NCBI GenBank assembly: GCA_945866095.1
Contig: CAMBGA010000004.1
Location: 1-54,893, forward strand
Direction: 5' to 3'
DNA: 54,893 nt
Origin: Spirosoma fluviale
GTDB taxonomy: Bacteria; Bacteroidota; Bacteroidia; Cytophagales; Spirosomataceae
Part shown: positions 35,269 to 47,862 of the stretch, piece after piece
How the letters are laid out: each line of letters opens with the position of its first letter
Position numbering within the stretch: the stretch's first letter is position 1
Translations under genes and position numbers: made by a program
Notes under the pieces: generated by a model
The model's input: the letters and a program-made list of their open reading frames with translations, nothing else
What the model was told of the DNA's origin: nothing
Database searches by the model: none

Positions 35269-35284
35269 TGTTTCACGTGGAACT
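35269..35284. promoter_or_regulatory. parS-like site (ParB centromere)
   Basis: TGTTTCACGTGGAACT; close match to TGTTNCACGTGNAACA. Confidence 0.85.
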
Positions 35285-35295
35285 AGTTCATTAAT

Positions 35296-36057
35296 TTATG
35301 CAGATATCGTTTCACGTGGAACGCGAATGATTTCAAATCCAAATAAGTCACTAAGGTGGCCTAAAACGGTTTCTTTTACTTCAAATTCGTTGACGTCAAT
35401 GCCTAATTCATGACTCAAAGAGGTTACTCCTTTTTCGGAAATTCCGCAGGGTACAATGTGTGCGAAGTAAGATAGGTCGGAGTTGACATTAAATGCAAAG
35501 CCGTGCATGCTAATCCAGCGGGATGCTTTTACACCAAAAGCGCAAATTTTTCTTGCTTGGTCAGACTCGTGATTTATCCAAACGCCGGTTAGCCCATTAA
35601 TTCTGCCGGCGATCAAGCCGTAATCTTGACAGGTAAGAATGATGGCTTCTTCGAGCATTCTTAGGTACAGGTGAATGTCGGTATAAAAATTCTCTAGGTC
35701 AAAAATGGGATAGCCAACGAGTTGGCCTGGCCCGTGATACGTTATGTCGCCCCCTCGATTTGTTTTGAAAAACGTCGCATTGATGGTGTGCAAAAACTCT
35801 TCGCGCACCAGTAGGTGTGAGGCGTCACCGCTCTTTCCTAAGGTATATACATGAGGGTGTTGACAGAACAAAAGATAATTGGGCGTTATGCTTGTTTCGG
35901 TTTGAGTGCAATCCCGGTTGGCCAATTTAATTCCAGATATCTCCGACATGAGGCTTTCCTGCATATCCCAAGCTTCTTGGTACGGCACAAGATTTAAATC
36001 AACAACTTGGACTTTTTTATTCTGATGGTACATGTGGGGCTCGTCGCGTCTAATCAT
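35296..36057 (-). CDS. lipB: Lipoyl(octanoyl) transferase
   Basis: HPHVYTLGKSGDASHLL; NRGGDITYHGPGQLVGYPI; GVKASRWISMHGFAFNVN. Confidence 0.96.
   Translation of the reverse strand: MIRRDEPHMYHQNKKVQVVDLNLVPYQEAWDMQESLMSEISGIKLANRDCTQTETSITPNYLLFCQHPHVYTLGKSGDASHLLVREEFLHTINATFFKTNRGGDITYHGPGQLVGYPIFDLENFYTDIHLYLRMLEEAIILTCQDYGLIAGRINGLTGVWINHESDQARKICAFGVKASRWISMHGFAFNVNSDLSYFAHIVPCGISEKGVTSLSHELGIDVNEFEVKETVLGHLSDLFGFEIIRVPRETISA
35308..35323. promoter_or_regulatory. parS-like site inside the lipB 3' end
   Basis: CGTTTCACGTGGAACG. Confidence 0.82.
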
Positions 36058-36895: not shown

Positions 36896-36911
36896 TGTTT
36901 CACGTGGAACA
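36896..36911. promoter_or_regulatory. parS-like site upstream of mnmG
   Basis: TGTTTCACGTGGAACA; full match to TGTTNCACGTGNAACA. Confidence 0.9.
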
Positions 36912-36926
36912 CCCAATAAAATTTGC

Positions 36927-38786
36927 ATGCAATATACATACGACGTCATAGTAGTAGGAGCGGGACACGCAGGTTGTGAAGCGGCACATGCAGCAGCACA
37001 AATGGGTTCGCGCGTTTTGCTCATTACCATGAACATGCAAACCATTGCACAAATGTCCTGCAACCCGGCTATGGGCGGGGTAGCCAAAGGGCAGATTGTG
37101 CGAGAAATAGATGCGTTGGGTGGAATGTCTGGAATCATTTCCGACAAAACCATGATACAATTTCGAATGCTGAATCGATCAAAGGGTCCGGCAATGTGGT
37201 CGCCTAGGTGCCAATCAGACAGAATGAGGTTTGCGGAGGAGTGGCGTTGGGCATTGGAAGAAAATAAGAATGTAGATTTTTGGCAAGACTCGGTCCAACA
37301 AATCATCCTAGAAAATGATGAAGTAAAGGGGGTAAAGACGCGTATGGGCATGAGCTATTTTGCGCCGAATGTCGTGTTAACGAATGGAACTTTTTTAAAT
37401 GGGCTCATCCATATAGGAGAGAAGAATTTTGGAGGGGGGAGAATGGCGGAACCAATGGCGATGGGGCTTACGGAACAATTGCTTGAGTTGGGCTTTGAGT
37501 CGGGCAGAATGAAGACCGGCACGCCGCCTAGGGTAGACGGAAGGAGCTTAGATTATGCTGCGATGGAAGAGCAAAAGGGAGACGAAAACCCAAGCTCTTT
37601 TTCATATTTGAGCGAGACCCATATTAAGGAACAGCGCTCATGCTGGATCACGCATACCAACTTAAAAGTTCACGAAGCATTAAGAAAAGGCTTTGATAAA
37701 TCGCCGATGTTTGCGGGAAGAATAAAAGGATTAGGGCCGCGCTATTGCCCATCCGTAGAAGATAAAATAAATCGCTTTGCTGATAAAGACAGTCACCAAA
37801 TCTTTGTGGAACCAGAAGGCTGGAGAACCGTAGAAATCTATGTCAATGGCTTTTCAACATCGCTCCCAGAAGAAATACAATTTGAGGCCATTCGATTAAT
37901 TACTGGATTTGAAAAAGCCAAAATGTTTAGGCCTGGATATGCAATTGAGTATGACTATTTCCCTCCGACCCAATTAAAGTCGACGCTTGAAACAAAAAGA
38001 ATAAGTGGTCTGTTTTTTGCGGGTCAAATTAATGGGACAACGGGATATGAAGAAGCGGCTTGCCAAGGACTAATGGCGGGAATTAATGCACATCAAAAAA
38101 CACATCATTTAGATCCCTTTACTTTGTCAAGATCTGATGCCTACATAGGCGTTTTGATTGACGATTTGATCAACAAAGGAACAGATGAGCCTTATCGTAT
38201 GTTTACGTCGAGGGCCGAATTTAGAACCTTGCTTAGACAAGACAATGCGGATGAGCGATTGACCGACAAAGGATTTAAACTGGGTCTGGCCACACAAAAA
38301 AGAATGGACCGCTTCGTTCAGAAAAAATCGAATGTGGCTGCTCTAATGAGTGAAATAAAAATGATTAAAATTCGCCCTGAAAATATAAACGATTGGCTTG
38401 AAAATAATCAAAGTTCCCCTATCCGAGAAGGCACGCCATTGGTCAATTTATTAAGGCGTTCTGATTTAAGTTTTGAGGCGTTGCTGACCAACGAGCATTT
38501 CAAGGAAATTAAAAACGGCTATACGAATGAAGAATTAGAACAAGTAGAAATCATTGTTAAATACGAGAGCTATATAGAGAAGGAAAGGCTCATGGTTGAC
38601 AAAATGAAAACTATGGAAGACTTAGCGATTCCAGCAAGTTTTGATTACGATAAAATCAAAACCTTGTCCACCGAATCAAGAATAAAACTAAAAGCCATTA
38701 GGCCTGAAACCATAGGACAGGCAAGTCGGATTTCCGGCGTTTCGGCTTCCGATGTTTCTATTTTACTTTTGTTTATGGGTCGATAA
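36927..38786 (+). CDS. mnmG: tRNA uridine-5-carboxymethylaminomethyl(34) synthesis enzyme MnmG
   Basis: [61 protein letters not shown]. Confidence 0.98.
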
Positions 38787-39673
38787 TGATGGAAAAACTA
38801 AGCTCATGTCCTGCCTGCGGTGAAACAAAAATATTGCCCTTTTTAACGGCAAAAGATTATACCGTCTCTAAAGAAACCTTCGAGGTCACTCGTTGCCAGG
38901 CGTGCGAATTACTGTTTACAAATCCTAGGCCAACCGCCTCCGAGGCAGGTCCTTATTATAAGTCGGACAATTACATTTCACATAGCGATACCCAAGAAGG
39001 AATCATTAATAAGCTCTACCACTTAATTCGAAATTTTACTTTAAAACAAAAAGCGCGGTGGATCGAAAAAGAGAAAACAGGCAATATTGAGCTGCTAGAT
39101 ATTGGTTGTGGAAATGGTCACTTTCTTCATGCATGTCAAAAAGCCGGATGGAAAATTAGCGGAATGGAGTTAGACCCCGTAACCGCTGCAAGAGCCACGT
39201 CCATGCTGGGCATTGATATTTATCCTTCGATCAAAGAAATTCCTAAAGAAGAAAAATTTAGATTGATTTCCCTTTGGCATGTACTGGAACACGTGTATGA
39301 GCTTGAGGAATATTTTACCTTTTTCAAATCTAGAATCGCGAAAGAGGGGGTCTTACTTTTGGCATTGCCTAATTCTAAAAGTTTTGATGCACAACATTTT
39401 AAAGAGCATTGGGCGGCCTATGATGTCCCAAGACATATCTACCATTTCGACCCAAGTACAATCGAGTCCTTGGCTAAAAAACATGGGTTTAAATTAAAAT
39501 CAACTAGGGGCCAGATTTTTGATAGTTTTTATATCTCATTACTCAGTCATGAATATAAAACGGGCAAGAAGAAATTGATCCGCTCATTTATGGTCGGTTT
39601 GTGGTCTAACCTAAGCGCCTATTTTGGCAAAGGAAATTATTCAAGTAATTTATATATTTTTGAGCATGTCTGA
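38786..39673 (+). CDS. Class I SAM-dependent methyltransferase with N-terminal zinc-ribbon-like motif
   Basis: CPACGE...CQACELLF; LLDIGCGNGHFLHACQKAGW; LWHVLEHV. Confidence 0.9.
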   Translation: MMEKLSSCPACGETKILPFLTAKDYTVSKETFEVTRCQACELLFTNPRPTASEAGPYYKSDNYISHSDTQEGIINKLYHLIRNFTLKQKARWIEKEKTGNIELLDIGCGNGHFLHACQKAGWKISGMELDPVTAARATSMLGIDIYPSIKEIPKEEKFRLISLWHVLEHVYELEEYFTFFKSRIAKEGVLLLALPNSKSFDAQHFKEHWAAYDVPRHIYHFDPSTIESLAKKHGFKLKSTRGQIFDSFYISLLSHEYKTGKKKLIRSFMVGLWSNLSAYFGKGNYSSNLYIFEHV

Positions 39674-41297
39674 TCTTCGAAGCAAACAGGTTGTTCTCCT
39701 TTTCTTTTTTTTTGTCACGGCTTTATTAATGATTCAAAGTTGTGCACAAATGGCTAGCCCTCCGGGTGGAAAAAAAGATACACTTGCGCCTAAGTTGGTC
39801 ACTTCCATTCCGCTCAATAAGAGTAAGAATTACAAAGGGAAAAAATTGGAGCTAGTGTTTAATGAATATGTCAACGTTAGAAATCTAAATCAAGAATTAC
39901 TTATCACGCCCAATATAGGCACCTACCAAACGCGTATTCGGCCCAATGGCTTGAGCATATTATTGGACAGCTCCCTAAAAGACCAAACAACCTATACCTT
40001 CAATTTTAGAAATTCGATCGAAGATATGTCAGAAAGAAATGTTGGCAAAAACATCAAACTCGTATTTAGCACATCAAACACGATTGATTCTCTAAGTATT
40101 ACAGGGAAAATTAAACTGGTCGACCTAAATAAAGCTTTTGAAAATGTTTTGGTGGGCCTATATCCCTATAATGACACACTTCGAATCGATAAGGCAAAGC
40201 CTTATTATTTCACAAAGACCGATACCTCGGGTATTTATACCTTAGAGAATTTGGCACAAGGGAAGTATTATATGGCTGCATTTATAGATGCCAACAACAA
40301 CCTTTTGTATAACTCGAGTAAAGAACCGGTTGATTTTTTGACGGAGCCATTTTTTACCCTAAACAAAAATGAAACCAAGAATTTTTCTATCTCGCTTCAA
40401 AATCTAGATCCTCTAAAAGTTACCAAAACAACAAGCACAGCCAAAACGGTTTTATATGAAATGAGCCGAGGAATTAAGGACCTAGAATTAGAAAACAAGA
40501 AAGGCCTCGTCTACCAAATAGAAGGAAATAAAAACATCCGAATTTATGTGAAAAACCAGGAGGCAAAAGACACGTTGTTCCTGAGTGCCAACGTGACAGA
40601 CTCGCTAAATAGGAAAATTGAAATACCCTTAAAAGTAAAATTCCGGGAGCTAATTAAAAAAGAAAAGATTGTTCGAACAACCTTACAGGTAAGTTATCTG
40701 CCGGCTCAGGGGAAATATGTTTCGCCAGAGGATTCATTGGTCTTAGGCTTTCCTAAACCTGTTGTTTCTTGGGATAGCAAACGAGTCCAATTTATAACTG
40801 AAGAAAACGAAACTATCACGCTGCCCGATGAAGCGTACATGTGGAACAAATATTCTAACCAATTGACCATTAAACGATCGTTTTTGCCGTACAGGGCGAA
40901 ATTTTTACTTAACCTAGAAAAGGGGGCCTTCGTTAGTGTCGAAAATGATTCCAGCGACGTCCAAAAACAAGCATTTCAATTCCAGGATTTAGAAGAGTAC
41001 GGAAGCATAGAGGGAAAGGTCGGCGAGCTGCCTAGTAACTATATAGTACAACTTCTGAATGCCGCTAACATGCAAGTCTTATATGAACAGAATACAAGCC
41101 AAAAATTCAATTTTTTACATATTGAACCAGGCGTCTATATGATTAGGGCCATCGAAGACACAAATAAAAATGGATATAAAGATATTGGCAATTTTATATT
41201 AAAAATAAAGCCGGAAAGCGTCTTTTATTTAGAGGGAAAAGTGAAATTAAAGGCAAATTTTCAAATTACTGATTTATTGATAAGTGCCCAAAACTAA
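39666..41297 (+). CDS. Ig-like (Big_5) domain lipoprotein
   Basis: Lipobox-like LMIQSCAQM; SPPGGKKDTLAPKLVTSIPLNKSKNYKGKKLELVFNEYV; ATG overlaps the methyltransferase stop. Confidence 0.8.
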   Translation: MSDLRSKQVVLLFFFFVTALLMIQSCAQMASPPGGKKDTLAPKLVTSIPLNKSKNYKGKKLELVFNEYVNVRNLNQELLITPNIGTYQTRIRPNGLSILLDSSLKDQTTYTFNFRNSIEDMSERNVGKNIKLVFSTSNTIDSLSITGKIKLVDLNKAFENVLVGLYPYNDTLRIDKAKPYYFTKTDTSGIYTLENLAQGKYYMAAFIDANNNLLYNSSKEPVDFLTEPFFTLNKNETKNFSISLQNLDPLKVTKTTSTAKTVLYEMSRGIKDLELENKKGLVYQIEGNKNIRIYVKNQEAKDTLFLSANVTDSLNRKIEIPLKVKFRELIKKEKIVRTTLQVSYLPAQGKYVSPEDSLVLGFPKPVVSWDSKRVQFITEENETITLPDEAYMWNKYSNQLTIKRSFLPYRAKFLLNLEKGAFVSVENDSSDVQKQAFQFQDLEEYGSIEGKVGELPSNYIVQLLNAANMQVLYEQNTSQKFNFLHIEPGVYMIRAIEDTNKNGYKDIGNFILKIKPESVFYLEGKVKLKANFQITDLLISAQN

Positions 41298-41579
41298 TGT
41301 GGATAAGTGCCCAAATTGTACACATGTTATCCACAAAGTTAAAGGCCCATTGTGTATAAATAAAATTTGGCCAAGTGCTTGTGGATAACTAATTACTTAT
41401 CCACAACCAAATGAAAACTTATCCACTTAGTAATAATGGCATTGAAAAATATAAGTGTTTAATTATCTGCTAGTTGAAAAGCTATTTTAGACTTATCCAC
41501 TTATCCACAGACATCAATAATGAAGAACAAAAAAGATGTATTTAAAATTTTATTTCTTTTAATTATACTATGTGGATAA
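41298..41579. other. Candidate chromosomal replication origin (oriC): DnaA-box cluster plus AT-rich stretch
   Basis: TTATCCACA or reverse complement at 41298, 41327, 41379, 41396, 41501, 41571; TTATACACA (rc) at 41350; TTATCCACT at 41418 and 41493; 41521-41570 contains 7 G/C in 50 nt. Confidence 0.85.
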
Positions 41580-43084
41580 AGTGTTTCTTTTTCTGTCTGA
41601 TTTTAAATCAAGTCTTTGGCCTAGATAATCATTTGATTGTTCAAGATTCTATTTCCAATCAAAAGTTCAAATCTGAATTCAAATCCATTCAATTAATTAA
41701 AAATGAAAAAAAGCGAAACAAGCTACTGGAAGAATTTGTAAGTAATCATGTAATTAATGGTGATTTATTTACTAATTATGCCTATAATTTGTTTAATGAA
41801 GATAATTTAGCATTAATATGGCTTGATGAATGTGGAAGGAATGTGGATAACTTATTAAAAACGGGAGATTTATCTTTGGTGCAGCAATTTGCTTATGGAT
41901 TATATGAACAACAAATTCCCTTTTCAGAAATAGAGCGATTATTCATTCAGAAAATCCAACAATTTCCCAATGATCCTAATTTAATCGAGTTGTTAGTGAG
42001 TACGTATATTTTTAATGGGGATTGGGACAAGGCTTGGAATCAGCGAAGGGCTTTGGATATGCGATATAAAAATGAGCAGGGTAAGCGCTTGTTAGAATTT
42101 GCTTCCTATATTTTTCAAAGTCAGCAATGGCCTTTGGCTAGTCAAATATTTGATTACTTGATTAAAAGTTATCCCGGATCCAATCAAAAGCCCCGTTGGC
42201 AACAAATGTCAATTGCCGCCCGAGAACAAGTTGTTTTGAGAAAAGAGAATCCGGAAATAGCCGAAGTGAGGAATTTAATTAGTGCTTACCAGAAATTAAG
42301 AAGTGACCGGGGGGATAATGCCATATCAATGAGTTCATATTGGCAGGAGGCGAAATTGTATGCATACCAATTAAAGCAATTGGATTCTGCGGTTATAGTA
42401 TTAAACAAGGGAATTTTGTTGGCGCAAAATGATCTCGATTTACAAGCGCAAATGAAACTGGAGCTCGGAGATATTTTAACGTATGAAGGAAAAAAATACG
42501 ATGCATTAATTCAATATGCTCAAGTGGAAAAGCAAGTCAAAGATTCCCCGCTGGCCTACGAAGCAAAAATCAAAACGGCCAAATTGTATTTTTATACCGG
42601 AGATTTTGAATTAGCCAAAGAGCTCGCAGATATTTTAAAGCAGGGAACACAAAGGGAGATTGCCAACGATGCGCTAGAATTAAGCTTATTGATTGAGGAT
42701 AATACAGGAATAGACTCTTTGGAGGTGGGCTTGAAAAATTTTGCCAACATCCGATTTATGTATGATCAAAAAAGGTGGGCCGAGGGGGATTCTTTGTTGG
42801 CAATCGTGACAAATCAGAACAAACAAGAAAGCTTACAAGACGATATTTTATATCTTAGATCTACTCGAGCGAGACAAAAAGGAGAGAATGCGCTTGCCAA
42901 AGAAATGTATTGGGAAATTTTTAAAAAGTTTCCCGAGGATATTTATGGCGACGATGCTTTATTTTATTTTTTGACGTTAAGCGATACGGCCAATAGTGAG
43001 CCATTTCTTTTATTTATCAAACAATATCCTAGTAGTTTACACCTAAGTGATGTAAGGGTAATGTTAAACAATGCAAAAAAATAA
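41570..43084 (+). CDS. Exported tetratricopeptide-repeat protein
   Basis: Signal peptide MWIKCFFFCLILNQVFG; TPR-like helices including AYEAKIKTAKLYFYTGDFELAKELADIL. Confidence 0.75.
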   Translation: MWIKCFFFCLILNQVFGLDNHLIVQDSISNQKFKSEFKSIQLIKNEKKRNKLLEEFVSNHVINGDLFTNYAYNLFNEDNLALIWLDECGRNVDNLLKTGDLSLVQQFAYGLYEQQIPFSEIERLFIQKIQQFPNDPNLIELLVSTYIFNGDWDKAWNQRRALDMRYKNEQGKRLLEFASYIFQSQQWPLASQIFDYLIKSYPGSNQKPRWQQMSIAAREQVVLRKENPEIAEVRNLISAYQKLRSDRGDNAISMSSYWQEAKLYAYQLKQLDSAVIVLNKGILLAQNDLDLQAQMKLELGDILTYEGKKYDALIQYAQVEKQVKDSPLAYEAKIKTAKLYFYTGDFELAKELADILKQGTQREIANDALELSLLIEDNTGIDSLEVGLKNFANIRFMYDQKRWAEGDSLLAIVTNQNKQESLQDDILYLRSTRARQKGENALAKEMYWEIFKKFPEDIYGDDALFYFLTLSDTANSEPFLLFIKQYPSSLHLSDVRVMLNNAKK

Positions 43085-47385: not shown

Positions 47386-47862
47386 ATGGCTTGGTACGCG
47401 GTATATACAAAATCTCGAATGGAGAAAAAGGTTTCTCTGAGATTGGAAGAAGCGGGAATAGAGAGTTATTGTCCAGTGACCAAACGCAAAAAACAGTGGT
47501 CGGACCGGAAAAAGATTGTGGAAGAGGTATTATTTCGCTCTTATATTTTCGTGAACATCGATTTAATTACGCAGGGGGCCACAGTGCGAAAAACGTTTGG
47601 GGTGGTTAATTTTGTGTATTGGTTGCACAAACCTGCGGTGGTACAGGATGGGGAAATATTAGCGATCCAACAATTTTTATCGGATCACATGGAGGTTTCT
47701 GTCATAGGGGACTCAGCGGTGAAAGTAGGTGATTTCATCACGATTGACACAGGGCCACTTAAAGGTCAGACGGCTGAAGTGGTCGGATTAAAAAATAAAA
47801 ATGAGGTTCGTTTGCGTATAGATAGTTTGGGATTTGAATTGGTGGCTAATTTAAGTCATTAA
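47386..47862 (+). CDS. UpxY family transcription antiterminator (NusG-like)
   Basis: MAWYAVYTKSRMEKKVSLRLEEAGIESYCPV; LFRSYIFVNID; C-terminal KOW-like GDFITIDTGPLKGQTAEV. Confidence 0.92.
   Translation: MAWYAVYTKSRMEKKVSLRLEEAGIESYCPVTKRKKQWSDRKKIVEEVLFRSYIFVNIDLITQGATVRKTFGVVNFVYWLHKPAVVQDGEILAIQQFLSDHMEVSVIGDSAVKVGDFITIDTGPLKGQTAEVVGLKNKNEVRLRIDSLGFELVANLSH

Follow-up and report, generated by a model that had tools for sequence, protein, structure and literature searches.

A predicted chromosomal replication origin close to mnmG in an uncultured Aquirufa-like bacterium of the order Cytophagales

Positions 41298-41579 of the contig studied here, possibly extending to 41850, are very probably the site (oriC) at which chromosome replication begins in an uncultured bacterium of the Cytophagales that resembles Aquirufa. 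The contig (C4, 54,893 bases, analysed over its whole length and hereafter called the window) belongs to a draft genome (G000) of 2.48 Mb in 186 contigs that is 81% complete. The MnmG protein encoded in the window is 97-98% identical to that of Cytophagaceae MAGs and 85% identical to those of Aquirufa ecclesiirivi and A. nivalisilvae, and we therefore consider the organism an Aquirufa-like member of the Cytophagales.

A preliminary description of this DNA had proposed an oriC at this place, and the proposal is now supported by the DnaA boxes, by a switch in GC skew, by the proximity of mnmG and parS-like sites, and by conservation. The locus combines the features expected of a DnaA-dependent bacterial origin, namely a box cluster, an adjacent AT-rich block, a nearby skew minimum, a conserved position and a DnaA gene in the genome, with those of the Bacteroidota type of origin, in which dnaA is not adjacent and mnmG is close by. 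As in ParABS systems, sites resembling parS are found near the predicted oriC, at a conserved place. We regard the locus as a solid, if ordinary, addition to a known type of site; both the separation of oriC from dnaA and the use of mnmG as a marker have already been reported for Bacteroidota.

The DnaA-box cluster, its AT-rich block and the neighbouring genes

Nine DnaA-box 9-mers lie within 41298-41579, comprising six perfect boxes (TTATCCACA), one TTATACACA and two TTATCCACT (Table 1). The perfect boxes of the minus strand appear on the forward strand as TGTGGATAA, and the one-mismatch box of the minus strand appears there as TGTGTATAA. The preliminary description had listed nine DnaA-box-like 9-mers in mixed orientation in about 280 bp, and all nine are present; five of its coordinates were exact, and those given as 41350, 41379, 41396 and 41418 were each one base too low. 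It was also right that the last two forward boxes share one base, with a TTATCCACT box at 41493-41501 and a perfect box at 41501-41509.

This clustering is far beyond chance. The densest 282-bp segment contains 6 perfect boxes and 9 boxes with at most one mismatch, as compared with maxima of 1 perfect and 2 near boxes per 282 bp in 40 first-order Markov simulations of the whole window, and the same maxima among 3000 simulated 282-bp pieces with the composition of the local flanks. No second DnaA-box cluster was found anywhere in the 54,893 bases, in agreement with the earlier statement; a further perfect box, starting at 41842, falls within the TPR gene.

The dnaA gene, previously noted as missing from the window, is located on contig C51 of the draft, where the single DnaA gene was detected (TIGR00362, 526.5 bits); this contig is without any perfect box and has a few scattered one-mismatch boxes. 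In the box-binding domain of the draft's DnaA protein the DHSTV motif is present, which has a role in DnaA-box recognition, and boxes of the TTATCCACA type are therefore to be expected.

Between the tandem box pair and the last box of the cluster lies the AT-rich block. Its part 41521-41570 has 7 G/C in 50 positions, exactly as first counted, and 50-mers as AT-rich as this occur at only three places in the window. Over 21 aligned sequences the mean column agreement is 0.92 for the boxes, 0.83 for the block at 41510-41570 and 0.59 for the other intergenic positions. Since the block exceeds the other intergenic positions in this measure, it is evidently conserved in its own right, and its composition and conservation make it the strongest candidate for an unwinding element. 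TT(A/G)T motifs of the E. coli type are not enriched in it (2 found versus 2.5 expected from shuffles).

The same stretch contains a short frame (MKNKKDVFKILFLLIILCG, 41520-41579) that by eye resembles a signal peptide and ends in the last DnaA box with the stop codon TAA. The ATG at 41520 was considered as a signal-peptide start for the TPR gene and rejected, being out of frame with that gene and running into a stop.

To the left of the cluster lie lipB, a yraN-family gene, ybeY, mnmG, a methyltransferase gene and an Ig-like gene (the lipoprotein gene of the preliminary description), and to the right the TPR gene followed by that of an AMP-binding enzyme. A distance of 2.5 kb separates the 3' end of mnmG from the first box, and three parS-like palindromes, identified by sequence match only, are found 4-6 kb left of the boxes. 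These occupy the same places in close relatives, and parS-like sites lie left of mnmG also in Emticicia, Rufibacter, Ohtaekwangia and others; the earlier remark that mnmG and parS-like sites accompany the cluster is confirmed on both counts, and both are conserved among relatives.

Further out, 6 kb right of the predicted oriC, a gene for an UpxY-family transcription antiterminator (47386-47862) adjoins nucleotide-sugar genes (GDP-mannose 4,6-dehydratase and nucleotide sugar dehydrogenase), and these genes probably form the start of a surface-polysaccharide locus.

Table 1. Features of the predicted oriC region, in coordinates of the window
Feature	Position	Strand	Remarks
parS-like site TGTTTCACGTGGAACT	35269..35284		exonuclease-lipB gap; equivalents in relatives
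parS-like site CGTTTCACGTGGAACG	35308..35323		lipB 3' end; equivalents in relatives
parS-like site TGTTTCACGTGGAACA	36896..36911		between ybeY and mnmG; same place in relatives
mnmG (gidA), oriC-linked marker gene	36927..38786	+	NCBIfam TIGR00136, E 1.3e-253
Methyltransferase gene (Methyltransf_23)	38786..39673	+	profile match and synteny
Ig-like (Big_5) gene, left of predicted oriC	39624..41297	+	synteny; start codon provisional
DnaA box, perfect TTATCCACA	41298..41306	-	right after stop codon of Ig-like gene; conserved in genus
DnaA box, perfect	41327..41335	+	conserved in genus
DnaA box TTATACACA, one mismatch	41351..41359	-	conserved in genus
DnaA box, perfect	41380..41388	-	17 bp to next box, spacing fixed in most of genus
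DnaA box, perfect	41397..41405	+	conserved in genus
DnaA box TTATCCACT	41419..41427	+	perfect TTATCCACA here in several relatives
Overlapping tandem DnaA boxes TTATCCACTTATCCACA, 8-bp offset	41493..41509	+	directed toward AT-rich block
AT-rich block, proposed DNA unwinding element	41510..41570		84% A+T; conserved AACAAAAAAG, then T-rich
TPR gene, right of predicted oriC	41570..43084	+	missing at this place in one subclade of genus
DnaA box, perfect	41571..41579	-	overlaps first TPR codons (ATG 41570); conserved in genus
Outlying DnaA box, perfect, within TPR gene	41842..41850	-	conserved in closest relatives

Conservation of the locus and GC skew

Using MnmG as the query, we fetched 80 named loci. 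The best box cluster is situated about 2-3 kb past mnmG in Aquirufa, Larkinella, Runella, Emticicia, Fibrella, Rhodocytophaga and others, and the gene order in these Cytophagales is mnmG, methyltransferase, Ig-like gene, boxes and TPR gene, with the Runella and Emticicia loci being without the methyltransferase. The Chitinophagaceae loci fetched are without these flanking genes, and no similar clustering of perfect boxes is seen around their mnmG. Within the genus, the order, orientation and spacing of the boxes are nearly fixed (17, 22, 74-75, 8 and 70-71 bp in most members), and the 17-mer of the tandem pair (TTATCCACTTATCCACA) was recovered from 19 of the 39 genomes searched, including 18 of the 25 belonging to the genus.

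Summed along the window, the GC skew reaches its minimum at 35436, which is 6 kb to the left of the boxes and falls amid the three parS-like sites. For the source genome the skew refers to the window, as a draft in 186 contigs precludes a whole-chromosome calculation. On a 766-kb contig of A. ecclesiirivi (G039:C11) the orthologous cluster marks a change in the sign of the skew, which is negative in 8 of the 9 samples to its left and positive in 10 of the 11 to its right. A congener assembled as a single contig of 2,505,188 bases (G007) carries the cluster at 1,241,620-1,242,044, with ten perfect boxes; over the 400 kb around it, the skew minimum is at 1,236,869, about 5 kb from the boxes, and this minimum is local, not global. 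The skew of a 9-Mb single contig from another family (G028) was too weak and too thinly sampled to inform.

ParB was not found in the 81%-complete draft, including with the model TIGR00180, and one ParB_N protein is present in each of three congeners more complete than the draft. In G007, dnaA (65-1441) and parB (2496594-2496872) would be 9 kb apart across the join if the chromosome is circular, and both are about 1.24 Mb from the predicted oriC and the parS-like sites. In two further congeners, G013 (contig C11) and G020 (contig C4), dnaA and parB share a contig, at a distance of 8-9 kb, and mnmG is on a different one.

A second DnaA-box cluster and alternative readings

The draft contains a second cluster (G000:C123:5120-5235) of four perfect boxes and ATATCCACA, flanked by an HTH_3 gene on one side and by a PRA-PH (MazG-like) gene on the other, and upstream of the latter. 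It is conserved in the genus, where all 22 untruncated loci have at least two perfect boxes and 21 of the 22 have at least three. These observations could be read to mean that the mnmG-linked cluster is a site titrating or reactivating DnaA, akin to datA/DARS of E. coli, and that the real oriC is elsewhere, for example at this second cluster; we consider such a reading highly improbable. Of the two clusters in the draft, 41298-41579 has more boxes; it also adjoins an AT-rich block, lies near parS-like sites and is associated with the skew switch. It is also conserved well beyond the genus, whereas MazG-like homologues found in four other families have no box cluster at the corresponding place. 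Moreover, the MazG-side locus of G007 is 892 kb from the predicted oriC, in a mostly positive run of skew with no change of sign.

The MazG-side cluster does not displace the cluster at 41298-41579 as oriC. At a guess, it may act as a promoter under DnaA control or serve to titrate DnaA. It is possible, if somewhat doubtful, that it tunes the availability of DnaA or couples nucleotide-pool cleaning to initiation, as a datA/DARS-like or DnaA-regulon element; to our knowledge, no such element has been described for these bacteria.

The boxes at 41298-41579 might also belong to a promoter through which DnaA controls the neighbouring TPR gene, since the last box overlaps its start codon and the AT-rich block is just upstream. 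In one subclade of the genus, however, no TPR gene is found at this place and the AMP-binding gene is the immediate neighbour, yet box content, box spacing and AT-rich block are all retained; the skew switch and the parS-like sites would furthermore be left unexplained. We consider this reading highly improbable as well, and regulation of the TPR gene may exist in addition to origin function.

The possibility of two origins, or of an origin that has moved, is equally remote. It draws on the sampled skew of G007, which has a second and deeper minimum near 210 kb, in a low-GC stretch (0.318). The preliminary description had proposed looking for the skew minimum at the cluster; this agrees with the window, to within 6 kb, with the sign flip in A. 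ecclesiirivi and with the local minimum of G007, whose deeper minimum is elsewhere. Near 210 kb, however, G007 has no cluster of perfect boxes, and if its stretch of 210-800 kb were inverted, a single minimum would remain, located at about 1.24 Mb, with arms of about 1.15 and 1.36 Mb. Because turning this stretch leaves a single minimum and arms of similar length, one inversion or misjoin can account for the 210-kb minimum and is, judging from the sampled skew, its likeliest cause.

Proposed function and comparison with known origins

For the region as oriC, we infer the following course of events. DnaA, supplied by its gene elsewhere on the chromosome, would occupy about nine boxes and would melt the duplex in the AT-rich block, toward which the tandem pair at 41493-41509 is directed. 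The replicative helicase would load at the melted block, with two forks departing in opposite directions, and the daughter origins would be segregated by ParB bound to the parS-like sites on the left.

In E. coli, oriC is next to gidA/mnmG and apart from dnaA, its TTATCCACA boxes flank an AT-rich unwinding element, and no parS is used. The predicted origin described here is likewise near mnmG and away from dnaA, with TTATCCACA boxes beside an AT-rich block; unlike that of E. coli, it is downstream of mnmG with two more genes in between, and has parS-like sites nearby. The tandem boxes 6/7 of B. subtilis are also set at an 8-bp offset. Together with DnaA-trios they make up a basal unwinding system, and in both cases the tandem pair is beside an AT-rich stretch (PMC8287927). 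The DnaA-trio rule calls for at least three trios that have the correct polarity and lie no more than 16 bp from a box (PMC8287927); unlike in B. subtilis, inspection by eye of the tandem pair, and of that pair only, revealed no run of three trios with the expected polarity directly after it, and the box strand there appeared A-rich where N-T-N repeats would be expected. An enterobacterial oriC has been placed at gidA-mioC (PMC10225481), and mioC is not among the neighbouring genes identified at our locus.

The oriC of Bacteroidetes is reported to be commonly far from dnaA (PMC4755523), and Ori-Finder 2022 is reported to put the origin of Flavobacteriaceae strain KMM 8389 at mnmG, a marker of oriC (PMC12843772). 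The locus resembles predicted Bacteroidota origins (DoriC / Ori-Finder; Prevotella intermedia OMA14) in its box cluster far from dnaA and at a skew switch (PMC4755523), and that of KMM 8389 in having mnmG as a marker (PMC12843772). It differs from the origins of these two strains, which belong to another order or class, in its methyltransferase, Ig-like and TPR flanks, which represent a Cytophagales arrangement. Our search of one literature library found no paper on an origin of Aquirufa or the Cytophagales.

The prediction places the replication origin in small-genome bacteria whose group is represented mostly by draft genomes. In these bacteria oriC and parS appear to have stayed together, and dnaA and parB form a pair at another locus, which in G007 is about half a chromosome distant. 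The succession of mnmG, methyltransferase and Ig-like gene followed by boxes would provide an origin marker for much of the Cytophagales, one that is recognizable even on a single contig.
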